Source of the DNA: Actinomycetospora cinnamomea
GTDB taxonomy: Bacteria; Actinomycetota; Actinomycetes; Mycobacteriales; Pseudonocardiaceae
Assembly (NCBI RefSeq): GCF_003096675.1
Contig: NZ_QEKW01000001.1
Location: 558,001 to 622,000, forward strand
Direction of reading: 5' to 3'
Length of the DNA stretch: 64,000 bases
The notes beneath the pieces are model-generated. The model searched no databases. It saw nothing but the letters and a program-made list of their open reading frames with translations, and was not told the origin of the DNA. Both the position numbers and the translations under genes were made by a program. Positions 51,229-62,780 of this stretch are shown here, piece by piece. Each line of letters opens with the position of its first letter. The stretch's first letter is position 1.

Positions 51229-52560
51229 GTGCAGGACATCCGCGACGCCATCCTCGCCGACGACACCAGCGCCCTCGCCGGCGTCTCGGTTCCCGAGTCC
51301 TACAAGGGCATCACCGTCCACGCGGACGAGGCCGGAATGTTCGAGGGGATGCCCTCGCGCGAGAAGGACCCGCGCAAGTCGTTGCACCTCGACGACGTCC
51401 CCACCCCGGAGGTCGCCCCCGGCGAGGCGCTCGTCGCCGTGATGGCCAGCGCCATCAACTACAACACCGTGTGGACGTCGATCTTCGAGCCCGTCTCGAC
51501 GTTCAGCTTCCTCAAGCGCTACGGCAAGATCTCGCCGCTGGCCAAGCGCCACGACCTGCCCTACCACGTGGTCGGCTCCGACCTCGCGGGCGTCGTGCTC
51601 AAGACCGGCGAGGGCGTCCAGATGTGGAAGCCGGGCGACAAGGTGGTGGCGCACTGCCTGTCGGTCGAGCTCGAGGCCCCCCAGGGGCACGACGACACGA
51701 TGATGGATCCCGAGCAGCGCATCTGGGGCTTCGAGACCAACTTCGGCGGCCTGGCCGAGCTGGCGCTGGTCAAGACCAACCAGCTGATGCCCAAGCCGGA
51801 CCACCTGACCTGGGAGGAGGCCGCCTCCCCCGGGCTGGTCAACTCCACCGCCTACCGGCAGCTGGTCAGCCAGCACGGCGCCAACATGACCCAGGGTGAC
51901 GTCGTGCTGATCTGGGGTGCCTCGGGCGGCCTGGGCTCCTACGCCACCCAGTTCGCGCTCAACGGCGGCGCGACCCCGGTCTGCGTGGTGTCCAGTCCCG
52001 AGAAGGCCGACATCTGCCGCAAGATGGGCGCCGAGCTGATCATCGACCGCTCGGAGGAGGGCTACAAGTTCTGGTCCGACCCCGAGACCCAGGACCCGCG
52101 GGAGTGGAAGCGCTTCGGCCAGAAGATCCGGGAGCTGACCGGCGGCGACGACCCCGACATCGTCTTCGAGCACCCGGGCCGCGAGACCTTCGGGGCGAGC
52201 GTCTACGTCGCCAAGCGCGGCGGAACGGTCGTCACCTGCGCGTCGACCTCGGGTTTCATGCACCAGTACGACAACCGCTACCTGTGGATGAACCTCAAGC
52301 GGATCATCGGCTCGCACTTCGCCAACTACAAGGAGGCCTACCTGGCCAACCGCCTCGTGGCGAAGGGCCAGATCCACCCGACCGTGTCGCGGGTCTACCC
52401 GCTGCACGAGACGGGCGAGGCGGCCAACGACGTGCACCACAACAGCCACCAGGGCAAGGTCGGTGTGCTCTGCCTCGCGCCGGAGGAGGGCCTCGGCGTC
52501 ACCGACACCGAGAAGCGCGAGCAGCACCTGGAGGCCATCAACCGCTTCCGGGGGGTCTGA
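51229..52560 (+). CDS. ccr: Crotonyl-CoA carboxylase/reductase
   Basis: 443 residues, zinc-free MDR superfamily. NADPH-binding GASGGLGSYATQFALNGG near 225. Residues known to bind CO2 in this enzyme are present: Asn in SAINYNTVW, Phe-Glu in IWGFETNFGG near 165, His in GSHFANYKEA near 364; this supports the carboxylating form rather than a simple reductase. It makes ethylmalonyl-CoA from crotonyl-CoA, CO2 and NADPH for the ethylmalonyl-CoA pathway or as polyketide extender. GTG start after GGAGGC. Confidence 0.95.
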   Translation: MQDIRDAILADDTSALAGVSVPESYKGITVHADEAGMFEGMPSREKDPRKSLHLDDVPTPEVAPGEALVAVMASAINYNTVWTSIFEPVSTFSFLKRYGKISPLAKRHDLPYHVVGSDLAGVVLKTGEGVQMWKPGDKVVAHCLSVELEAPQGHDDTMMDPEQRIWGFETNFGGLAELALVKTNQLMPKPDHLTWEEAASPGLVNSTAYRQLVSQHGANMTQGDVVLIWGASGGLGSYATQFALNGGATPVCVVSSPEKADICRKMGAELIIDRSEEGYKFWSDPETQDPREWKRFGQKIRELTGGDDPDIVFEHPGRETFGASVYVAKRGGTVVTCASTSGFMHQYDNRYLWMNLKRIIGSHFANYKEAYLANRLVAKGQIHPTVSRVYPLHETGEAANDVHHNSHQGKVGVLCLAPEEGLGVTDTEKREQHLEAINRFRGV

Positions 52561-52609
52561 GACCCTGTGCCCTCCTCACCCGTCCGTGGAACGGTCGCGG
52601 GGCCGTCGG

Positions 52610-52615
52610 TACCGT
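52610..52615 (+). promoter_or_regulatory. -10 box of leaderless coiled-coil gene transcript
   Basis: TACCGT lies 7 nt before the ATG at 52623, without a ribosome binding site. Confidence 0.45.
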
Positions 52616-52622
52616 GAACCGC

Positions 52623-53900
52623 ATGCCGTCCGACGAGCACGAGCTGTTGCCGCTGGGGACCGGCTTCGACGTCGTGCGCCGCGGTTACGACCGCGGTCAG
52701 GTCGAGGAGCACCTCGACCGCGTCGAGGCCGACCTGCGCATCCTCACGGCCGACCGTGACGCCGCCGTGGCCCAGGCCGCGGAGCTCGCCCGCGCGCTGG
52801 ACCACCACCGGGCGCACGTCGAGGACCTGCGCGCGCAGGTCGACCGGCTCTCGGCGCCGCCGGACACCATGGAGGGCCTCTCCGAGCGCCTCCAGCGCAT
52901 GCTGCGCCTCGCCCAGGACGAGACGCGGGCCATGCGCGAGGAGGCCGCGCAGGCGGCGCAGCGGGTGCGCGAGGAGGCCGACGACTACGCCCGCCGCACC
53001 CGCAACGGCGCGGACGAGCACGCCCGGCGCACCATGGCCGAGGCCGACGAGCACGCCCGCAGCACCGTCGCCGAGGCCGAGGAGCACGCCCGCGGCACCG
53101 TCGCGGAGGCCGACGAGCGCGCCCGCCGCACGGTCGAGCACGCCGAGGAGCAGGCGCGCGCCACGCTCGACGAGGCGCGCCGGCAGGCCCGCGAGGTCCA
53201 CGAGCGGGCCGAGGCCGAGGCGGCGGAGGCGCGCACCCGCTACGACGCGGGCATCGCCGACAACGAGCGCCGGCGCCGCGAGATGGAGGAGGAGCACCGC
53301 GGCCTGATGGACGGCGCGCGCGCCGAGGCCGCCCGCATCCGCCAGGACGCCGAGCGCGAGCGCGACCGCCTGGACGAGGAGGGGCGGGCGACGCGCACGC
53401 AGGTCGAGAACGACTTCGCCGTGGCGATGGCCTCCCGCCGCCGGGAGGCGATGCGCCAGCTCGAGGCCGACGAGGCGGTGTCGAAGGAGCGGGCCGAGAA
53501 GCACGTGCACGACGCTGCCGAGGAGGCCCGCCGGCGCCTGCGCGAGGCCGACGCCGAGGTGGCCGAGATGCGCCGCCTGCGCGACCGGGTGGCCCAGCAG
53601 CTGGCCACCCTGCGCACGGCGCTCGGCGCCCTGCCCACGCTCGACGCGCTCCCCGACGAGGACGGCGGCGACGGGCGCCCCGTCCTGCCCGAGCCGCCCG
53701 CTGCGGGTGCGCCCGTGGCCGGCCCGCGCCCGGTGAGCCCCCAGGGCGGCGGGCGCGGCGGTGGCAACGGCGGTGGCAACGGCGGTGGCAACGGCGGTGG
53801 CAACGGCGGTGGCAACGGCGGTGGAAACGGCGGTGGCAGCGGCACCGGTGAGCTGGGCGGCGCCTCGGCGCCGGAACAGCGCAGCGCCGCGTCGCGCTGA
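52623..53900 (+). CDS. DivIVA/FilP-like coiled-coil protein
   Basis: 425 residues. A DivIVA-like N-terminus (FDVVRRGYDRGQVEEHLDRV, about 13-40) is followed by a continuous Glu/Ala/Arg-rich coiled coil to about residue 335. Part of the coil is an 11-residue repeat around AEADEHARRT (about 130-185). The C-terminus is disordered with a Gly-Gly-Gly-Asn repeat. Such proteins form polar or cytoskeletal assemblies in actinomycetes (Wag31, Scy, FilP) and are often misnamed cellulose-binding proteins. The specific role is unknown. Confidence 0.82.
   Translation: MPSDEHELLPLGTGFDVVRRGYDRGQVEEHLDRVEADLRILTADRDAAVAQAAELARALDHHRAHVEDLRAQVDRLSAPPDTMEGLSERLQRMLRLAQDETRAMREEAAQAAQRVREEADDYARRTRNGADEHARRTMAEADEHARSTVAEAEEHARGTVAEADERARRTVEHAEEQARATLDEARRQAREVHERAEAEAAEARTRYDAGIADNERRRREMEEEHRGLMDGARAEAARIRQDAERERDRLDEEGRATRTQVENDFAVAMASRRREAMRQLEADEAVSKERAEKHVHDAAEEARRRLREADAEVAEMRRLRDRVAQQLATLRTALGALPTLDALPDEDGGDGRPVLPEPPAAGAPVAGPRPVSPQGGGRGGGNGGGNGGGNGGGNGGGNGGGNGGGSGTGELGGASAPEQRSAASR
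53757..53840. repeat. 12-bp minisatellite, 7 units, in the coiled-coil gene
   Basis: Seven 12-bp units (GGCGGTGGCAAC, last two with one change each) in frame, encoding Gly-Gly-Gly-Asn repeats. Confidence 0.92.
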
Positions 53901-53978: not shown

Positions 53979-54267
53979 AAACGCGGCGGCGCCAGCACCC
54001 CGTGTGCCAGTGCCGCCGTTCCACGGTCTCCTCGTCGTCGCCGGCCGGCCACGCCACCACGTGCGGCGTCCCGGGCACGATCTCCTGGTCGCAGCCCGGG
54101 CAGCGGTAGGTCTTCGTCGCGGCCGTGCCGCTGATCGACCGCACGGTCCAGCCGCCCTCCTCGCGCACCCAGCCGCCCCGCAGCGGCGGGGGCGCCGGCG
54201 CGGGGCGGGCGGGGTGCGGAGGGCGACGGCCGGTGCGCTCGGCACGCGGTCGGGGCCGTCGGGGCAC
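53977..54267 (-). CDS. Small zinc-ribbon protein of unknown function
   Basis: 96 residues: a basic, proline-rich N-terminus, then WVREEGGWTVRSISGTAATK and a zinc-binding pattern YRCPGCDQEIVPG...HWHTGCW (C-x2-C ... H-x2-C). It resembles a conserved small actinobacterial protein of unknown function sometimes labelled ATP/GTP-binding. GTG 54267 lies 2 bp after the dehydrogenase stop, so it is probably co-transcribed with it. Confidence 0.75.
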   Translation of the reverse strand: MPRRPRPRAERTGRRPPHPARPAPAPPPLRGGWVREEGGWTVRSISGTAATKTYRCPGCDQEIVPGTPHVVAWPAGDDEETVERRHWHTGCWRRRV

Positions 54268-54269
54268 GC

Positions 54270-56054
54270 CTACTTCTTCTGGTAGTCCCGGAAGCCCTGG
54301 CCGGTCTTGCGGCCCAGGCGCCCGGCGGTGACCAGGTGCTCGAGCAGCGGCGCCGGCGCGAACCCGGGCACGCGGAACTCCTGGTACAGCGAGCGCTCGA
54401 TCGCCAGCGACACGTCCAGACCGACGACGTCGAGCAGCGCGAACGGCCCCATCGGCAGGCCGCAGCCGTTCTTCATGGCCGAGTCGATGTCGTCGGCGCT
54501 CGCGTAGTTCGTCTCGAGCATCGTCGTGGCGTCGTTGAGGTACGGGAAGAGCAGCGCGTTGACGATGAAGCCCGCGCGGTCGCCACACAGCACCGGGTGC
54601 TTGCCGATCGTGGCGCACACCGCCCGCACGGTGGACGTGACGTCGGGGGCGGTGGTGATCGGGCTGACGATCTCGACGAGCTTCATCACCGACGCCGGGT
54701 TGAAGAAGTGCATGCCGACCACGTCGTCGGGCCGCTGCGTCGCCGCCGCGCACTCGACCACCGGCAGCGAGGACGTGGTCGTCGCGAGGATGGCGCCGGG
54801 CTTGCAGACGTCGTCGAGCGCGCCGAACACGGCCTGCTTGACCTCGAGGTCCTCCGCGACGGCCTCGACGACGAGGTCGCAGTCCGCGAGGTCGTCGAAC
54901 GACGTCGTGGGCCGCACGCGTGCGAGGGTCTCGTCGCGGGCCGACTCGGCGAGCTTGCCCTTGACCACGGCCTTGTCCAGCGACTTGCGGATGGCCGCGA
55001 CGACGCCCTCGCCCTTGGCCTCGGTGCGCGCGCGGACGACGACGTCGTAGCCGGCCTTGGCGAAGACCTCGGCGATGCCGGTGGCCATCGTGCCGGTGCC
55101 GACGACGCCGACGGAGCGCACCGTGCGCTGCTCGCCGGTCTCCTGGCCGGGCGGGGGCGGGGTGAGGGCGTCGGCGACGACCTCGGGCGAGCCGGGCGCG
55201 GCGTAGGTGTAGAAGCCACGCCCGGTCTTCCGGCCCAGCAGGCCCGCGGTGATCATCTGCTTGAGTATCGGGGCCGGCGCGTGGCGCTGGTTGCGCGACT
55301 GCCGGTACATCGTGTCGAGGATCTCGTAGGCGGTGTCGAGGCCGATGAGGTCCATGAGCGCCAGCGGGCCCATCGGGTAGCCGCAGCCGTAGCGCATGGC
55401 GGCGTCGAGGTCCTCGCGGCCGGCGTAGTGGGACTCGAACATCCCGACGGCCTGGTTGAGGTAGGTGAAGAGCAGGCTGTTGGCGATGAAGCCGGCGCGG
55501 TCGCCGCACACCACCGGGCTCTTGCCCAGCCGCACCGCCAGGTCGCAGACGTCGGAGAGCACCTCCGGGTCGGTGACGACCGTGCGCACCACCTCGACCA
55601 GCTTCTGCACCGGCGCCGGGTTGAAGAAGTGCATGCCGACGACCTGCGACGGGCGCTCGGTGCGCACCGACAACTCGGTGATCGACAGCGACGAGGTGTT
55701 CGACGCGAAGATCGTGTCGGGTCCGCACACCTTCGACAGCGCCGCGAACACCTCGGCCTTGAGCTCCAGGCGCTCGGGCACCGCCTCGACCACGAGGTCG
55801 ACGTCGGCGAGGTCGTCGAGGTTGGTGGTCACGCGCAGGCGCCCGAGGAGGGCCTCGCGGTCCTCGGCGGCCAGCTTCGAGCGGTCGACGGCCCGCTGGG
55901 TGGAGGCCTCGACGATCTCGCGGCCGTGGGCCACGGCGGCGTCGTCGACCTCGACGGCGATCACTTCGATGCCCGCCTTGGCGAACACCTCGGCGATGCC
56001 CGCCCCCATGGTGCCGAGACCGACCACTCCCACCCGGGCGAATTCGCGCGCCAC
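54270..56054 (-). CDS. Duplicated 3-hydroxyacyl-CoA dehydrogenase
   Basis: 594 residues: two complete 3-hydroxybutyryl-CoA dehydrogenase modules. Module 1 has GVVGLGTMGAGIAEVFAKAG near 8, ASNTSSLSITELS near 115, and VGMHFFNPAPVQKLVEVV. Module 2 has GVVGTGTMATGIAEVFAKAG near 318 and VGMHFFNPASVMKLVEIV. It oxidises 3-hydroxyacyl-CoA (or reduces acetoacetyl-CoA) with NAD(H). A dehydrogenase of this double type is found near ccr in streptomycetes, consistent with feeding the ethylmalonyl-CoA pathway. Confidence 0.92.
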   Translation of the reverse strand: MAREFARVGVVGLGTMGAGIAEVFAKAGIEVIAVEVDDAAVAHGREIVEASTQRAVDRSKLAAEDREALLGRLRVTTNLDDLADVDLVVEAVPERLELKAEVFAALSKVCGPDTIFASNTSSLSITELSVRTERPSQVVGMHFFNPAPVQKLVEVVRTVVTDPEVLSDVCDLAVRLGKSPVVCGDRAGFIANSLLFTYLNQAVGMFESHYAGREDLDAAMRYGCGYPMGPLALMDLIGLDTAYEILDTMYRQSRNQRHAPAPILKQMITAGLLGRKTGRGFYTYAAPGSPEVVADALTPPPPGQETGEQRTVRSVGVVGTGTMATGIAEVFAKAGYDVVVRARTEAKGEGVVAAIRKSLDKAVVKGKLAESARDETLARVRPTTSFDDLADCDLVVEAVAEDLEVKQAVFGALDDVCKPGAILATTTSSLPVVECAAATQRPDDVVGMHFFNPASVMKLVEIVSPITTAPDVTSTVRAVCATIGKHPVLCGDRAGFIVNALLFPYLNDATTMLETNYASADDIDSAMKNGCGLPMGPFALLDVVGLDVSLAIERSLYQEFRVPGFAPAPLLEHLVTAGRLGRKTGQGFRDYQKK

Positions 56055-56214
56055 GTCCGAGACCTTCCTGCCGACGACCGGTGTCCGGGTCCGACCGAGA
56101 TCGTGCGCGGGCCGGTCCCGCGGCGCGATCCTGCCATGCGTGACCGCGTCTCACCCCGGTCCGAGGGAGGGGGCGGTACCCACGGGTAACTTGACCGTTC
56201 CGGTTAGTCCCTCG

Positions 56215-56763
56215 TCAGCCCCCGTCGAGCGCGACCGCGGCCAGCTCGCCGGCCGGGACACGGTCGTCGGGGCTGCGGGGGTTCCAGCGGGCGACGGCGA
56301 CTCCACCGCGGACCACCGCGTCACCCCCGAGCTGGCGGGTATCCTCCACGGGCGCTCCGCTCCCGTGACCCCACCGGCCCCGCCGCGCGGCCCGCAGGTA
56401 GATCGCGATCGTGCCCGGCGAGTACACGCGCCACCAGGGCGCGCGCCCCAGCCCGAGGTCGCGGTAGAGACGGCGCTCGGTGTCGGCGAGGAAGCGCCCC
56501 CGCCACCCGAGGTGCTCGGCGAGCGGGGCGAGGGCGTCGGGCGGGCTGAACCCGACCGCGACGGCCTCCACCGCCGATCCCGCCACGGCCTCCTGCACCC
56601 GGACCAGGTGCTCCTGACACGGCAGTCAATACCGGTGGCGGATCGCGGTCAGCACGACCGCCGCGTCCCGCCCGAGCTCGCCGAGGTCCACCGGGTCGCC
56701 GGTGCGGGCGTCGGGCAGGACGATGTCGTGCAGGTCGACCGGACGGTCGTCGCGACGGGGCAC
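56215..56763 (-). CDS. Peroxiredoxin-like selenoprotein (in-frame UGA read as Sec)
   Basis: 182 residues if the TGA at 56626-56628 is read through. Before it: PDARTGDPVDLGELGRDAAV and VVLTAIRHRY; after it: LPCQEHLVRVQEAV, then VGFSPPDALAPLAEHLGWRG, VYSPGTIAIYL and QLGGDAVVRGGVAVARW. Both parts are in one frame and belong to one thioredoxin-fold AhpC/TSA-like family whose members have RH-x2-C-x2-C-QEH. The UGA stands at the first Cys, giving U-x2-C at residue 46. A SECIS-like hairpin follows. It probably reduces peroxides or thiols. GTG 56763 is used (alternative 56802). A nonsense pseudogene is the other reading. Confidence 0.75.
56595..56628 (-). promoter_or_regulatory. Bacterial SECIS-like hairpin after in-frame UGA
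   Basis: In the mRNA, 14 nt after UGA, GCACC (56611-56607) pairs with GGUGC (56599-56595) around the 7-nt loop UGGUCCG. The loop starts 19 nt after UGA and contains GGUC, like the GGUCU loop of E. coli fdhF, which begins about 18 nt after its UGA. Confidence 0.55.
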
Positions 56764-56793
56764 GCACCGGATCGTGCCGGGGAGGGAGACCGG

Positions 56794-58380
56794 GTGCAGC
56801 ACGGCCACCAGCACCGCCGTCAGCACCGCCGTCAGCACCGCCGTCAGCACCGCCGTCAGCACCGCGACCAGCTCATCGACCTGCTCGTCGTCGGGGGCGG
56901 CACGGCCGGGCTGGTGGCGGCGCGCACCGCCGCACGGCTCGGGGCGCGGGTGGTGCTGGTCGAGCGCACCCGCACCGGCGGCGACTGCCTCTGGACCGGA
57001 TGCGTGCCGTCCAAGGCTTTCCTCGCCGCTGCCGCGCACGCCCACGCGGTGCGCGACGGCGCCCGGTTCGGGGTCCGCGCGGCGGCGCCGCACGTCGACC
57101 TCGCCGCGGTCATGACCCATGTGCACGCCGCCCGTGAACGGATCGCCCCGGTCGACTCGGTCGAGGCGCTGGCCGCCGACGGCGTGGAGGTCCGTCACGG
57201 CACGCTGCGCTTCAGCGGCCCCGGGCGCGCCACCCTCGACGGCGAGGTGGATGGCGCCCCGCTGCGCTTCCGGCGCGCGGTCATCGCGACGGGTGCCGAT
57301 CCGGTGCTGCCGGGGATCCCCGGCCTGGCCGACGCCGCGCCGCTGACCACCGACTCGGTGTGGGACCTGGACGCCCCGGTCCCCTCGCTGGTCGTGCTCG
57401 GCGCCGGACCGATCGGCTGCGAGCTCGGCCAGGGGTTCGCCCGGCTCGGGACGGCGGTGACGCTGCTCGAGGCGGCCGATCGCGTCCTGCCCGTCGAGGA
57501 GCCGGAGGCCTCGGCGCGCCTGGGTGCGGCGCTCGCCCGCGACGGGGTGGACGTCCGCACCGGGCGGCGCGCCGTGGCGGTGTCGGCCGTGCGTCCCGCC
57601 GGTGACGGGTGGGAGGTGGAGCTCGACGACGGTGCCCGGGTGCGGGGCGCGCGCGTCCTGGTCGCCCTGGGCCGGGCCCCGGCGACCGCGGGGCTGGGCC
57701 TGGACGCCCTCGGCGTCACGCGGGCGTCCACGGGGCACGTCGTCGTGGACGACCGGCTGCGCACGAGCGCGCCCGGGGTGTTCGCGGCCGGCGACGTCGT
57801 CGGCGACCTGCCCTCGGGCGGCGCACTGTTGCCGAGGCCGTTCACCCACGTCGCCGGGGTGCACGGGAGCGTGGCGGCGACCAACGCGGTCCTCGCCCCG
57901 CTGCGCCGCGTGGACCACCGGGCCATGCCCCGGGTGACCTACACCGCCCCGGAGGTCGCCCACGTCGGGCTGACCGAGGACGCGGCCCGGGAGGGCCACG
58001 ACGGCGTGCGGGTTCGGACGCTGGAGCACGGCGAGGTGGACCGGGCCGTGACCGAGGACGAGACCGCCGGGGTGACCCGCGTGGTGCTCGACCGGCGGGG
58101 GCGCGTGCTCGGCGCCACCGTCGTGGGCCCGCGGGCCGGGGAGGTGCTCAACGAGCTGACCGCGCTCGTCGCCCGCCGCGGCCGGCTGCGCGAGCTCGCC
58201 GGCGTCACCCACCCCTATCCGGGCTGGGGCGACGCCGTGTGGAACGCCGCCCTCGCCGAGCTCGGCGACGCCCTCGCGACCCAGGCGGCGCGGCGGGCGG
58301 CCCGTCTCGGCGTGCTGGCGCGGCGGGTCGTGCCGCTCAGCCGCGCATCCGCCGGGCGAGCAGCGCCCCGCCCACGGTGA
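56794..58380 (+). CDS. Flavin disulfide reductase with His/Gln/Arg-repeat N-terminus
   Basis: 528 residues of the dihydrolipoamide dehydrogenase/mercuric reductase family. FAD-binding LLVVGGGTAGLVAARTAARL begins near 30; redox-active pair is in TGGDCLWTGCVPSKAFLAAA near 62; NAD(P)-binding LVVLGAGPIGCELGQGFARL near 200; second FAD motif SAPGVFAAGDVVGDL near 325; the C-terminal dimer domain ends in THPYPGWGDAVWNAAL with the His of the His-Glu pair replaced by a THPYP type. The first 25 residues are Gln-His-Arg-Arg repeats. GTG 56794 has GGAGGGAG upstream. Divergent from the selenoprotein; the 3' end overlaps the VTT gene by 44 nt. Confidence 0.88.
   Translation: MQHGHQHRRQHRRQHRRQHRRQHRDQLIDLLVVGGGTAGLVAARTAARLGARVVLVERTRTGGDCLWTGCVPSKAFLAAAAHAHAVRDGARFGVRAAAPHVDLAAVMTHVHAARERIAPVDSVEALAADGVEVRHGTLRFSGPGRATLDGEVDGAPLRFRRAVIATGADPVLPGIPGLADAAPLTTDSVWDLDAPVPSLVVLGAGPIGCELGQGFARLGTAVTLLEAADRVLPVEEPEASARLGAALARDGVDVRTGRRAVAVSAVRPAGDGWEVELDDGARVRGARVLVALGRAPATAGLGLDALGVTRASTGHVVVDDRLRTSAPGVFAAGDVVGDLPSGGALLPRPFTHVAGVHGSVAATNAVLAPLRRVDHRAMPRVTYTAPEVAHVGLTEDAAREGHDGVRVRTLEHGEVDRAVTEDETAGVTRVVLDRRGRVLGATVVGPRAGEVLNELTALVARRGRLRELAGVTHPYPGWGDAVWNAALAELGDALATQAARRAARLGVLARRVVPLSRASAGRAAPRPR
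56809..56868. repeat. 12-bp minisatellite, 5 units, at the reductase 5' end
   Basis: Four identical 12-bp units (CAGCACCGCCGT) and a fifth ending in GAC, encoding Gln-His-Arg-Arg repeats directly before the flavin-binding fold. Confidence 0.92.
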
Positions 58381-59023
58381 GCGTGGCGAACCCCCCGGCG
58401 GCGGCGAGGAACGCCGGTGAGGTCGGGTCGTCGGCGCTGCCGCCGAGCACGACGAGGGCGACGACGCCGGGCACGATGCCCAGCGCGGTGCCCGCCAGGT
58501 AGGGCCGCAGGCCGACGGCCGTGGCCGCCGCGCCGTAGTTGACGAGCACGAACCCGAACAGCGGGACCAGCCGGACGAGGAGCACGGCGAGGAACGCCCG
58601 GCGCGCCGTGTGGGTCAGGAACCGGTCGAACCGTTCGAGGCGCTCGCCGGCGAGCGCCTCGACCGCCGGTCGCGACAGCACCCGCCCGACCGCGAACGAG
58701 CCGCCCGCGCCCAGCATCGCCCCCGTCCAGACCACCGCGACCCCGGCCACGGGCCCGAAGAGCACCCCGGCCACCGCGGAGAGCAGCGAGACCGGCAGCA
58801 GGGCCATGGTGGCGACCGCGTAGACCAGGACGAACGCGACCGCGCCGGCCGGGCCGAGGCCCGCGACCCACGCCCGGGTGTCGGCGACCAGCGAGCTCCC
58901 GCGCGTCACGGCCAGGACGCCGGCCGCCGCGAGCAGCACCGCGAAGAGCGCCAGCCGCGGCCAGGGCGAGCGCAGGACCCGCACCCAGCGGCGGCCCGGT
59001 GCGGTGGTGGCGGGCCCGGTCAC
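58337..59023 (-). CDS. TVP38/TMEM64 (VTT domain) membrane protein
   Basis: 228 residues with about five membrane segments. The VTT core is visible: AVAFVLVYAVATMALLPVSL near 65, AGVLFGPVAGVAVVWTGAMLGAGGSFAVGR near 85, and LVRLVPLFGFVLVNYGAAAT near 150. VTT proteins are lipid scramblase/transport-like with unclear substrates in bacteria; they often occur beside mercuric-reductase-like flavoproteins, as here. GTG 59023 overlaps the stop of the upstream glycosyltransferase-radical SAM gene (GTGA). Confidence 0.88.
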   Translation of the reverse strand: MTGPATTAPGRRWVRVLRSPWPRLALFAVLLAAAGVLAVTRGSSLVADTRAWVAGLGPAGAVAFVLVYAVATMALLPVSLLSAVAGVLFGPVAGVAVVWTGAMLGAGGSFAVGRVLSRPAVEALAGERLERFDRFLTHTARRAFLAVLLVRLVPLFGFVLVNYGAAATAVGLRPYLAGTALGIVPGVVALVVLGGSADDPTSPAFLAAAGGFATLTVGGALLARRMRG

Positions 59024-61092
59024 CGGTCACGCTCGGAGAGCGGCAGCAGGCGGCGCAGCGCGGCGTTCTCGGCCGGATCGAGCACGGCGTGCTGCACGCA
59101 GGCCGGCACGATCGTGCCGTCCTCGGGGTGGGCCATCGCGTAGTGGCACGCGGCGAGGCGTTCCTGGGTCGCGCGCACGCGCGGGTCGTCGGCGGTCTCC
59201 CCGCGCCGGGTGAGTGCCCAGGCCGGAGCGACGTCGGCGGCGTCCATGAAGCTGTGCATGACGAACGTCAGCGGTCGCGGGCGGTGGCGCAGCACCCGGC
59301 GCGGGCCGACGCGGCGCACGGTGCGCGCCAGCCAACCGGCGGCCACGGCGACCACCGAGGGGTGGCGGGCCACGACCCGTGCCAGGCGGACGGCCAGCAG
59401 GGCCGGGGGCACCCCGGTGAAGGTCACCGCCCCGAGGTGGCGGAAGAACGCGTCGCGCACGGCGAGGTCACGCGGGTCGTCGCCGTCGAGCAGGGGGAAC
59501 CAGCGGTCCCCGAGCCGGACGCCGTAGGCCACGCGGTTGCAGCGCACGTCCCCGTGCTGGAACAGCGTCGGGTCCAGCCGCGTCCCGGCGCCGGACTCGA
59601 TGCGCGCCCACACCGCGTCGGCGTCGTGGTCGCGGTAGTCCTCGCGCCACCGGCGCTCGTCGCCCACGAACGCCGCGGGCTGGAACGACAGCATCCCGAA
59701 CCCCAGCGGCAGGCAGTCGCGCACCACGTCGGGCACCTGGTCGAGGTTGGCCGGGGTGACGGTCATGGTGTGGGCCACGAAGGAGCGCACCCCGTGGCGG
59801 CGCAGCGCGGCCATCGCCTCGACGAAGCGGCGGCGGTAGGGGGTCAGCGAGCGCTCGTCCGGCGGCCGCGGGATGCCGCGGCGCCCGTACATCAGCGAGT
59901 CGACGTGCACCGCGAACGACAGGCGCCGGAAGCGGCGACGCCCGTCCGGCCCGAGGGCGAGCCGGCGCAGGTGGTCCGGGTCGACGTCGCCGTGGGTCAT
60001 GCTCATCGGCTCCCGGCCGTGCCGGCGCATGATCTCCAGCGCGGCCGCGTGGTCGTCGGGATCGAGCAGGGTGACCTCGCCGCCGATGAGCTGGGCGTGC
60101 GCCACCGGGCCCCGCTCGCGGTGCAGCAGCGCCATCTGGGCCTCGACCTGCGCGAGGGTGTGCGGGCCGTCGACGCGCACCCGGTTGGCGTCGCGGGAGT
60201 GGTAGCAGGGCGTGCAGGCCAGGTCGCAGCGCGGGAACACGCCGTGGGTGCCCTCGCACCCCACCGCGTGCCGCCCCAGCACCTGCCCGGGCGTGCGCGC
60301 ACCGTCGGGCAGCTCCGCCCACCGGCGCGCCAGCGCGTCCGCGAAGGCGGGGTCGACCGGGCGGAGCCTCCGGCGAAGGGCCCGCAGGCGGCCCTCGCGG
60401 CGGGGCGCGGTGTAGCGCCGCCGGATCTCCTCGGGCGGGACGCCGCGGAAGTACAGCAGCTTGCACCACTGCATCCGCACGATCATGCGCACCGTCCCGT
60501 GCTCGTCGAAACGGCGGGCCGACGCGACGCAGGGCGGGTCGAGGACGACGACCCGGCCCCGGCCGTGCAGTCGCCTGCTGAGCTCGAGGTCCTCCATGAG
60601 CACCAGGCCGCCGAACCCGCCGACAGCGTCGAAGTGCCGGCGGCGCACGAACATCGCCTGGTCGCCGAACACCCAGCCCAGCCGGCGCGCCCGCACGTTC
60701 GAGGTCCACTCCAGCCAGCGCAGCGCCGGGCCACCCCGGTCGAAGCGCAACCGGAACCCACCGCCCACGACGCGCGGGTCGGCCAGGGCCGCCGCCATCG
60801 CCGCCAGGGACGCCGGGTCGGGGCGGGTGTCGGCGTGCACGAACCACAGCACGTCGCCCGTGGCGGCGGCCGCGCCCGCGTCGCCCTGCCGGCCACGGCC
60901 CGTCGGTGCGTGCACCACGGTGGCCCGCGGCGCGGCCCGCGCCACCAGGTCCAGGGTGTGGTCGGTGCTGCCGCCGTCGGCGACGACGATCTCGCAGCCG
61001 GCGAAGTGGGTGCGCAGGTGCTCGAGGAGCCCGGCCACGCGCTCCTGCTCGTCGAGCACCGGCACGACGATCGAGACGCGCACCGGCGTCAC
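59020..61092 (-). CDS. Fusion: TIGR04283-like glycosyltransferase + radical SAM enzyme
   Basis: 690 residues. Domain 1 (about 1-230) is a GT2 glycosyltransferase: VSIVVPVLDEQERVAGLLEH, IVVADGGSTDHTLDLVARA near 40, GDVLWFVHADTRPDPASLAA near 85; this matches the TIGR04283 group, named for arsenosugar clusters. Domain 2 (about 270-690) is radical SAM: FPRCDLACTPCYHSRDANRV holds the C-x3-C-x2-C iron-sulfur site near 295, followed by AQLIGGEVTLLDPDD. More Cys near the end (AACHYAM, VPACVQHAV) may bind auxiliary clusters. Product unknown. GTG 61092 overlaps the upstream stop; an ATG at 61101 is less likely. Confidence 0.82.
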   Translation of the reverse strand: MTPVRVSIVVPVLDEQERVAGLLEHLRTHFAGCEIVVADGGSTDHTLDLVARAAPRATVVHAPTGRGRQGDAGAAAATGDVLWFVHADTRPDPASLAAMAAALADPRVVGGGFRLRFDRGGPALRWLEWTSNVRARRLGWVFGDQAMFVRRRHFDAVGGFGGLVLMEDLELSRRLHGRGRVVVLDPPCVASARRFDEHGTVRMIVRMQWCKLLYFRGVPPEEIRRRYTAPRREGRLRALRRRLRPVDPAFADALARRWAELPDGARTPGQVLGRHAVGCEGTHGVFPRCDLACTPCYHSRDANRVRVDGPHTLAQVEAQMALLHRERGPVAHAQLIGGEVTLLDPDDHAAALEIMRRHGREPMSMTHGDVDPDHLRRLALGPDGRRRFRRLSFAVHVDSLMYGRRGIPRPPDERSLTPYRRRFVEAMAALRRHGVRSFVAHTMTVTPANLDQVPDVVRDCLPLGFGMLSFQPAAFVGDERRWREDYRDHDADAVWARIESGAGTRLDPTLFQHGDVRCNRVAYGVRLGDRWFPLLDGDDPRDLAVRDAFFRHLGAVTFTGVPPALLAVRLARVVARHPSVVAVAAGWLARTVRRVGPRRVLRHRPRPLTFVMHSFMDAADVAPAWALTRRGETADDPRVRATQERLAACHYAMAHPEDGTIVPACVQHAVLDPAENAALRRLLPLSERDR

Positions 61093-62780
61093 ACCGCGCA
61101 CTGGTAGATCGTCGGCAGCGACCCGTCACGGCGGCGCAGCTCGAGGAACCGCTCGACGACGCGGCGCTTGGCCTCGGCCATCGGCACCTCCGGCCCGCCC
61201 AGGTGCATGTCGGGGCTGGTGGCGACGTCCGCGCCCGCGGGGTGCCAGTGCCAGCCGTCGGTGGTGACGGTGAGCTCGGGGACCGTGTCGTCCTCGCCGA
61301 TCGCCATGCCCGCGTCGGAGTGGCCCCGGGCGATCAGCGGGCGCACCGCCACCCGCTCCGGCGGCACGCCGTGCCCGGCGAGCAGCGTGCGCAGCGCGTC
61401 GCCCTGCCCGGCGTTGTGCTCGGTCTCGGTCATCCCGACGCGCACCGGCAGCCCGAGCGACACCGCCAGGTCGAGGCCCTCCATCGCCCGCACCCACGAC
61501 CCGCGGCCGCGCAGCGCGTCGTGGGCGGCGGGGTCGGGGCCGTCGAGCGAGGTCTGCAGGGTCAGCCCCTCGACGCCGGCGAGCCGGGCGAGCTGCTCGC
61601 GGCGCCGCCCGCGGTAGAGCATCGCGTTGGTCAGGCAGACCACGTCGAGGCACTCGGTGGCCTCGAGCAGCATGTCCACGAGGTCGGCGACCAGGAACGG
61701 CTCGCCGCCGGTGACGTAGAGCTCGGTGAACCCCTCGGCGACGGCGTCGGCGAGCAGGGCCGAGAAGCGCTCGCGGTCCAGGCGCCGCGGCCGCGCCCGC
61801 GGCGACGACGCGACCGAGCAGTAGTCGCAGGCCAGGTTGCAGTCGAAGTTGGTGTACAGCCAGAGCCGGGGCGGGAAGAGCGCCGAGCCGAACAGCGGCA
61901 TCACCGGGCGCCCGTCGTCGGGTACCGCGAGGTCGGCGCCCCACGAGCCCGCGGCGGCGCGGAAGTCGGGCACGGCGGACTTGTAGAGCTGGAAGCGGCC
62001 CCGGGACCGCTCCGCGGGCGGCAGGATCTCCAGGCAGGTGGTCAGCCAGCCGGTCTCGATCGACTCGGCGAACGCCTCGGGCAGGCCCGCGGCCCGGATC
62101 GACGCGGCCTGCGCCGCCCAGTCGTACTCCAGGGGCACCAACGTCGCGCTCGCCGAGCCGTCCTCGAGGTCGAGCAGCGCGTACCAGACGTGGGTGCCGC
62201 CGTCGTTGGCCGGCCGCCCGAGCACGCCCACGTTGACCACCAGCGTCTCGCCGCCGTCGGAGCGGGTGATGCGACGGGTCCAGGGCAGGCCGGAGTGGGT
62301 GCAGCACACGACGTCGGCCCCGGACGCGTCGACCCGGGCCCGGTGCGCGTCCTCGTCGAGCGAGGACCACCAGAAGTCGTTGACCGCGAGCGTGGAGCCG
62401 TGGACCAGGTGCAGGTCGACGCCGGCGACGGTCTCGCGGTGCTCGGTCGGGAGCGTGCGCATCCACGCCGCGAAGGCGACCGAGGTGTTCGCGAACGTGT
62501 AGTCGTAGGCGATCTGGGCGAACGCGTTGTCGGCGTCGTCGGCGTAGCCGCAGCCGCAGTCGGTCTGCCCGGAGCCGATCGCGACCTCGTAGTTGCCCGC
62601 CAGGCACTCGACCCCGCCCTCGCGCAGCAGCGGGAAGACCGCCTCCGGTTCGGCGCCGTAGGCCCCGAAGTCACCCAGGCACACCAGGCGCTGCGCGCCC
62701 CGGGCGCGGGCGTCGGCGAGGAAGGACCGCAACGCGTAGGGGTTGGAGTAGACGCCGCCACACAGGGCGATCCGCACCAC
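61089..62780 (-). CDS. Fusion: degenerate metallophosphoesterase + radical SAM/SPASM-like enzyme
   Basis: 563 residues. Domain 1 (about 1-250) follows the calcineurin-like phosphoesterase fold: VCLGDFGAYGAEPEAVFPLL near 32, LAGNYEVAIG in place of GNHD, VHGSTLAVNDFWW near 125, NVGVLGRPANDGG near 178. The usual first D-x-H is replaced by GGVYSN, so catalysis is doubtful. Domain 2 (about 300-563) is radical SAM: YTNFDCNLACDYCSVASSP with C-x3-C-x2-C near 310 and LYVTGGEPFLVADLVDMLLE near 345. Substrate unknown. GGAGGC directly precedes two adjacent GTG codons (62780, 62777). First gene of the coupled three-gene operon. Confidence 0.82.
   Translation of the reverse strand: MVRIALCGGVYSNPYALRSFLADARARGAQRLVCLGDFGAYGAEPEAVFPLLREGGVECLAGNYEVAIGSGQTDCGCGYADDADNAFAQIAYDYTFANTSVAFAAWMRTLPTEHRETVAGVDLHLVHGSTLAVNDFWWSSLDEDAHRARVDASGADVVCCTHSGLPWTRRITRSDGGETLVVNVGVLGRPANDGGTHVWYALLDLEDGSASATLVPLEYDWAAQAASIRAAGLPEAFAESIETGWLTTCLEILPPAERSRGRFQLYKSAVPDFRAAAGSWGADLAVPDDGRPVMPLFGSALFPPRLWLYTNFDCNLACDYCSVASSPRARPRRLDRERFSALLADAVAEGFTELYVTGGEPFLVADLVDMLLEATECLDVVCLTNAMLYRGRRREQLARLAGVEGLTLQTSLDGPDPAAHDALRGRGSWVRAMEGLDLAVSLGLPVRVGMTETEHNAGQGDALRTLLAGHGVPPERVAVRPLIARGHSDAGMAIGEDDTVPELTVTTDGWHWHPAGADVATSPDMHLGGPEVPMAEAKRRVVERFLELRRRDGSLPTIYQCAV

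Follow-up and report, generated by a model that had tools for sequence, protein, structure and literature searches.

The gene at positions 56215 to 56763 of the window, which is the whole stretch of 64,000 nucleotides that was analysed, very probably encodes a selenoprotein by means of an in-frame UGA codon. Judged against its relatives, the case for a real selenoprotein gene is an unusually clean one. Annotation based on stop codons would split or lose this gene.

An in-frame TGA in a gene for a thioredoxin-fold protein

The features of the gene are as follows.

56215..56763, minus strand: predicted selenoprotein gene, 182 residues plus stop, with the GTG start at 56763-56761 and the natural stop TGA at 56217-56215
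56626..56628, minus strand: in-frame TGA, read as selenocysteine (U46); the aligned codon was compared in 56 distinct family genes
56617..56619, minus strand: TGT codon of Cys49, the partner in the UxxC motif, in a column that is at least 90% conserved

The original prediction had joined two parts of one frame, separated only by the TGA at 56626-56628. Translation bore this out and placed the gene on the minus strand, which had not been stated. With TGA read as U, the frame from 56763 to 56215 gave 182 residues with a single internal TGA, and the residues around it were ...AIRHRY-U-LPCQEHLVRV.... The predicted placement of the TGA at the redox Cys of the motif, RHRY-U-LPCQEH, was confirmed. 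It had also been claimed that, unlike in a pseudogene, there is no other stop, and the frame is indeed otherwise open from the GTG at 56763 to the TGA at 56215. The part past the TGA is no chance frame, with 39.2 bits for PF13911 (cut-off 27).

The same frame stays open far upstream of the GTG at 56763-56761. Since this GTG is aligned with the ATG starts of relatives, position 56763 is likely to be the true start. A search between 55900 and 57100 for promoter and terminator consensus sequences gave none. In an Rfam search (E 5) of positions 54000-59000, no SECIS family was detected near the selenoprotein gene, and the matches obtained were just weak microRNA/sRNA matches, far under the cut-offs.

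Family survey and the aligned codon

We searched 397 genomes of the order, 18 of the genus, 112 of the family of genome G257 (taken as Geodermatophilaceae) and 396 of the phylum. Full-length stop-bearing matches were detected in five of the 18 genus genomes and, among the matches listed, in three of the 112 genomes of the G257 family. Each of the five genus genes has a single TGA at the same place; the random stops in sister genomes that the original prediction had named as contrary evidence were not seen. In the phylum, 43 of the 396 genomes gave matches with E at or below 1e-10, in 47 rows, with TGA in 40 and Cys in seven. Since 40 of these 47 phylum matches carry the same TGA, under-annotation may affect a selenoprotein family that is widespread in actinobacteria. 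The order search matched 14 genomes, eight of them only weakly (E 1.2e-5 to 7.3e-4). These eight were left out; the ones that were read, L036 not among them, resembled noise or a different kind of thioredoxin-fold protein. The counts also exclude genus and Geodermatophilaceae hits that scored no more than about 20-30 bits, as well as hits in the phylum with E above 1e-10. No match at E 1e-5 was found in plasmid records.

The aligned codons were read from a profile alignment of 58 rows, comprising the genus, G257-family and phylum matches, two Cys relatives from the order search, L023 and L082. The codon was TGA in 47 rows, TAG in two, TGC in seven and TGT in two. As L023 is identical in sequence to L065 and was counted once, 57 distinct genes remained, and 56 after the paralogue L082 was set aside: 45 with TGA, two with TAG and nine with Cys. 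Thus, 47 of the 56 distinct family genes carry a stop at this position, and Cys is the sole sense residue (9/56). Inside the family genes there is no further stop; the second stop listed for two rows lies at the C-terminal end of the match.

A relative with 84% identity reads through the same TGA. Between the study gene and its closest relative, L065, dN/dS after the TGA was 0.17, and in four other pairs it was 0.28, 0.34, 0.36 and 0.42 after the stop. Before the stop it was 0.21-0.69, on far fewer sites. A pseudogene, a sequencing error and a chance ORF were rejected on comparative grounds.

Two further arrangements were observed. In genome G475, two adjoining TGA-bearing family genes lie side by side (L163; G475:C130:56119-56646 and 56694-57200). 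In genome G440, a partial second relative (L217; G440:C303:3248-3541, minus strand), possibly a remnant, lies on another contig and matches by its C-terminal part alone; it lacks the active-site column and was dropped from the codon count.

Selenocysteine machinery of the source genome

The source assembly comprises 5.97 Mb in 50 contigs. The original prediction had proposed a search for the selenocysteine machinery, and selA, selB, selD and tRNA-Sec are all present. The selA gene (C9:198044-199297) scored over its cut-off and is adjoined by selB, which gave 241.2 bits alone and 259.4 bits with the neighbouring in-frame stretches (cut-off 242.25). The selD gene, on C21, was also over its cut-off. 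The tRNA-Sec gene (C9:204823-204914) scored 72.1 bits against a cut-off of 47, and its anticodon was read as UCA by ARAGORN.

Two other genes of this genome carry an in-frame TGA. Near tRNA-Sec and selAB, a formate dehydrogenase alpha gene (L220:12515-15772, minus strand) has the TGA as residue 190 and, when read through, scored 1904 bits to NF041513. Given this gene together with the sel genes and tRNA-Sec, selenocysteine decoding is probably used apart from the study gene. A second candidate selenoprotein is L082 (G000:C17:83295-83558, minus strand), an AhpC/TSA protein (PF00578, 96.6 bits) with the motif FYRGDW-TGA-PYC.

A bSECIS-like hairpin after the UGA

The following feature was found downstream of the UGA.

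56595..56611, minus strand: bSECIS-like hairpin GCACCUG-GUC-CGGGUGC, with its stem from 14 nt and its loop from 21 nt after the UGA

In the published bSECIS model, the loop is 3-9 nt, the stem is 4-16 bp, a G lies within the first two loop bases, the distance from the UGA is 16-37 nt and the MFE is at most -7.5 (PMC13188914). The hairpin of the study gene agrees with this model (7 bp, loop GUC, 21 nt, -9.1 kcal/mol). Among the 48 stop genes, L082 included, 40 passed, and none of the nine Cys genes did. The eight that failed include L067, of the same genus; the hairpin of L082 also failed. As 402 of 1874 ordinary neighbouring coding windows pass, the test alone is weak, and it is covariation that carries weight.

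The stop genes were divided into type 1, with HLV after the site (23 genes, including the study gene), and type 2, the remaining 24 stop genes without L082.

Type 1 genes: The HLVxV codons form CACCU...AGGUG with an apical GU, and 99.3% of the cells are paired, versus 34-44% when the pattern is slid. At one pair, 11 genes have G-C and 10 have C-G. In L142, L144 and L203, U-A replaces C-G and the protein has Met for Val.

Type 2 genes: The common form is GUCGCGC-AGUU-GCGCGAC, and 88.1% of the cells are paired, versus 17-55% when slid. The Leu codon in the loop is TTG in 21 of 22 cases, compared with 25 of the 319 Leu codons in the rest of these genes. L213 lacks the common form.

The nine Cys genes pair in 61% and 49% of the cells. 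The types follow the tree, except for L150, which is not HLV, lacks such a hairpin and yet branches basally in the type 1 half. A synonymous-codon test of folding energy, which is weak, gave a mean z of -0.53 for 46 TGA genes (five at p <=0.05), +0.66 for the nine Cys genes (two at p <=0.05) and -0.41 for the study gene.

In the study gene, GGUC lies 20 nt after the UGA, and in E. coli fdhF it lies 18 nt after the UGA. The fdhF query had matches in 5368 of the 5426 E. coli genomes searched. The GGUC loop has a role in SelB binding. We suggest that SelB and Sec-tRNA-Sec(UCA) insert selenocysteine at codon 46, and that insertion would be directed by the hairpin, in which the stem starts 14 nt past the UGA and takes in sequence of the HLVRV codons.

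Neighbouring genes

The genes beyond the start of the selenoprotein gene are as follows.

56794..58380, plus strand: divergent MerA-like FAD/NAD(P) disulfide reductase with the redox motif CLWTGC; start uncertain, the in-frame GTG at 56794 being one candidate
58337..59023, minus strand: VTT-domain membrane protein, which we take to be TVP38/DedA-like
59020..61101, minus strand: glycosyltransferase (TIGR04283, 222.6 bits, cut-off 182) fused to a radical-SAM protein, kept in close relatives

A 12-bp tandem repeat of 5.8 copies lies at 56797-56865, between the divergent selenoprotein and MerA-like genes; it may be within the N-terminus of the reductase, as a His/Arg-rich stretch. A second 12-bp repeat, at 53756-53843 (7.3 copies, 96% matches), corresponds to a Gly/Asn-rich tail in the frame 52104-53900.

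In three genomes of the genus (G267, G404 and G400), the glycosyltransferase, MerA-like reductase, radical-SAM and selenoprotein genes lie in this order on one strand, and the last two overlap by one base in the stop/start sequence TGATG. The study locus and G409 differ from this, with a divergent reductase gene and a single fusion of the glycosyltransferase and radical-SAM parts. The tight gene row in the three congeners suggests a redox partner. A MerA-like neighbour, defined as a tblastn match at E 1e-8 or better in the stretch around the locus, was found near 13 of the 23 type 1 genes versus none of the 20 type 2 loci, which account for 21 of that type's 24 genes; these counts are not independent because the loci are related. 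Within type 1, it was found near seven of the eight genes of the near clade (the exception is G292) and at six of the 15 further loci, some of which are on short contigs. On this co-occurrence, the reductase is the best candidate for the electron donor. From the gene order, the adjoining MerA-like flavoprotein would hand NAD(P)H electrons to the selenoprotein, a step to which we give a little under an even chance.

It is slightly more probable than not that the selenoprotein is real and that its MerA-like, radical-SAM and glycosyltransferase neighbours are incidental. No MerA-like gene is near 10 of the 23 type 1 genes or at any of the 20 type 2 loci, some of which lie on short contigs; only the near clade shows the radical-SAM/glycosyltransferase match; and the reductase of the study locus is divergent, on the other strand. 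The one-base TGATG overlap in three genomes and the difference of 13/23 versus 0/20 between the types argue against coincidence.

A wider reading is tentative and, in our judgement, rather unlikely as a whole. The selenoprotein would stand at the end of the redox chain in a dedicated actinobacterial module, in which electrons pass from NAD(P)H to the MerA-like flavoprotein and on to the SelL-like Sec protein; the module would be tied to a radical-SAM/glycosyltransferase pathway, and in one lineage the active-site codon of the selenoprotein and the tRNA-Sec anticodon would have changed jointly, the codon from UGA to UAG. If this dedicated module exists, it would be a branch of metabolism that depends on selenium. 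A testable lead to the role of the SelL-related group is provided by its MerA-like and radical-SAM neighbours.

The stop codon agrees with the anticodon of tRNA-Sec

The aligned codon was compared with the tRNA-Sec anticodon of the same genome wherever both were read. Genomes G257 and G292 have the TAG genes, and in both the tRNA-Sec anticodon is CUA. ARAGORN labels this CUA tRNA as Pyl from its anticodon; it is the best RF01852 match in each of the two genomes, with 66.9 and 66.6 bits, respectively. G440, which belongs to the family of G257, has a TGA gene and the anticodon UCA. In the genus, UCA was read in all 18 genomes, five of which have the gene. Of 42 other phylum-sample genomes, 32 have a tRNA-Sec, always with UCA; the family gene has TGA in 28 of these genomes and Cys in four. 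In total, TGA occurs with UCA in 34 genomes and TAG with CUA in two, with no mismatch; thus, agreement is 36/36 where both were read. The alignment of homologues that the original prediction had proposed therefore gave Cys, or a stop matching the tRNA-Sec anticodon wherever the anticodon was read. The two TAG genes group together as a single clade in the tree, next to six TGA genes. With UGA in some genomes and UAG in others at one orthologous site, each matched by the tRNA-Sec anticodon, nature provides a clean test of selenocysteine decoding.

The distribution of the machinery was as follows. G575, with a Cys gene and neither tRNA-Sec nor selA found, is sister in the tree to G596, with a TGA gene and both found. 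The searches of G368 and G372, which have Cys genes, gave neither selA nor a tRNA-Sec score above the cut-off; in G710 and G738, also with Cys genes, selA is present and tRNA-Sec was not found. Four genomes with Cys genes retain tRNA-Sec (G607, G498, G637 and G628). Since Cys genes occur in genomes keeping the machinery, selenocysteine is not used everywhere the machinery exists.

In a search with stricter filters, tRNA-Sec was not found in seven of the 35 phylum-sample genomes with a TGA gene. Among these seven, selA was over the cut-off in G584 and G586, consisted of two abutting sub-cut-off stretches in G721, and appeared as a partial match in G615 and as a fragment in G645. In G518 and G623, neither tRNA-Sec nor selA was found alongside the TGA family genes, and the assemblies are possibly incomplete. 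Because most of the seven assemblies are in about 170 or more contigs, absence is weak evidence here; this does not account for G518, which is 98% complete.

G475 has two tRNA-Sec matches about 9 kb apart (C96:70099-70187 and 79295-79385; 74.7 and 58.0 bits). An apparent second tRNA-Sec beside the gene of G622 was rejected, as ARAGORN calls it tRNA-Ser.

These observations bear on two other explanations of the TGA. A decaying gene with a nonsense mutation in the active-site codon would fit the patchy occurrence in the genus (5/18) and the incomplete second relative in G440, which has no active-site column. However, the stop is at the same position in 47 of 56 distinct genes without any other internal stop, dN/dS after the TGA is low, and the type of stop tracks the anticodon; decay is very improbable. 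Readthrough of the UGA by a near-cognate or ordinary tRNA such as that for Trp, which draws on the fact that the inserted residue is deduced from sequence alone, is more improbable still, in view of Cys as the sole sense residue at the site, UAG with tRNA-Sec(CUA) in place of UGA in two genomes, the conserved hairpin and the complete machinery. Thus, the original reading of the gene as a selenoprotein gene is supported.

Protein family and comparison with known systems

The best Pfam family of the predicted selenoprotein is PF13911 (AhpC-TSA_2; 39.8 bits, over the gathering cut-off of 27), and PF00578 (AhpC-TSA) scored 25.5 bits, just under its gathering cut-off of 26. NF040769 (SelL-related redox protein) gave 75 bits, under the curated cut-off of 120; its scores for the relatives L023, L024 and L068 were 81.2, 92.5 and 72.7, and all 53 aligned family members matched it at E 0.001 or better. 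Because its score is under the cut-off, we call the study protein SelL-related and do not file it as a member of NF040769. The alignment of 53 sequences shows no variation at R42, position 46 or D94, and conservation of 90% or more at G22, C49 and D167. An AlphaFold model with Cys for Sec had a pLDDT of 93.6 and places position 46 directly before helix 47-59. A UxxC pair in this place corresponds to thioredoxin-type oxidoreductase geometry. Judged by its fold and motif, the product would be a SelL-related thioredoxin-fold oxidoreductase of the PGF-synthase type, in which Sec46, at the start of the helix, may be the nucleophile and Cys49 may resolve it as a selenenylsulfide. The substrate may be a disulfide, a peroxide or another oxidant.

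Human prostamide/PGF synthase (PDB 9us9 and 9usa) is the top match by both fold and profile. In its RFGCVVCR segment, Cys44-x-x-Cys47 is aligned with U46-x-x-C49. The human protein differs in having Cys rather than Sec, in being eukaryotic and in its identity of about 25%. We take it to belong to the PRXL2 family, kin to eukaryotic selenoprotein U.

The gene had been described as peroxiredoxin-like. This description calls for a qualification: the site is of the UxxC SelL/PGF-synthase type, not the T/SxxC(U) type of true peroxiredoxins. The peroxidatic motif of classical peroxiredoxins is T/S-x-x-C or U (PMC1794560). In the study protein, His43 stands three residues before U46, and C49 follows U46.

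Selenocysteine in UxxC Prx-like proteins and UAG-encoded selenocysteine in Geodermatophilaceae have both already been published. Decoding of UAG via tRNA-Sec(CUA) was described in Geodermatophilaceae, with FDH, UGSC and an AhpC selenoprotein named (PMC5330540). Our two TAG relatives follow this rule, and that AhpC may or may not belong to the study family. In the accessible parts of mainly open literature, including PMC5330540, PMC13188914, PMC9312934, PMC1794560, PMC5029168 and PMC2398784, we saw no account of UGA/UAG alternation in a PF13911 family with UxxC. In the parts available of two of these, the thioredoxin-fold selenoproteins comprise Prx-like thiol:disulfide oxidoreductases (PF00578) with UxxC or UxxU and Redoxin (PF08534) with UxxC, and AhpC/TSA selenoproteins (PF13911 or cd02970) are given only with UxxS (PMC13188914, PMC9312934). 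Like the proteins covered there, the study protein combines a Prx-like fold with a predicted Sec at a CxxC-like site, whereas its PF13911 domain carries UxxC, not UxxS.
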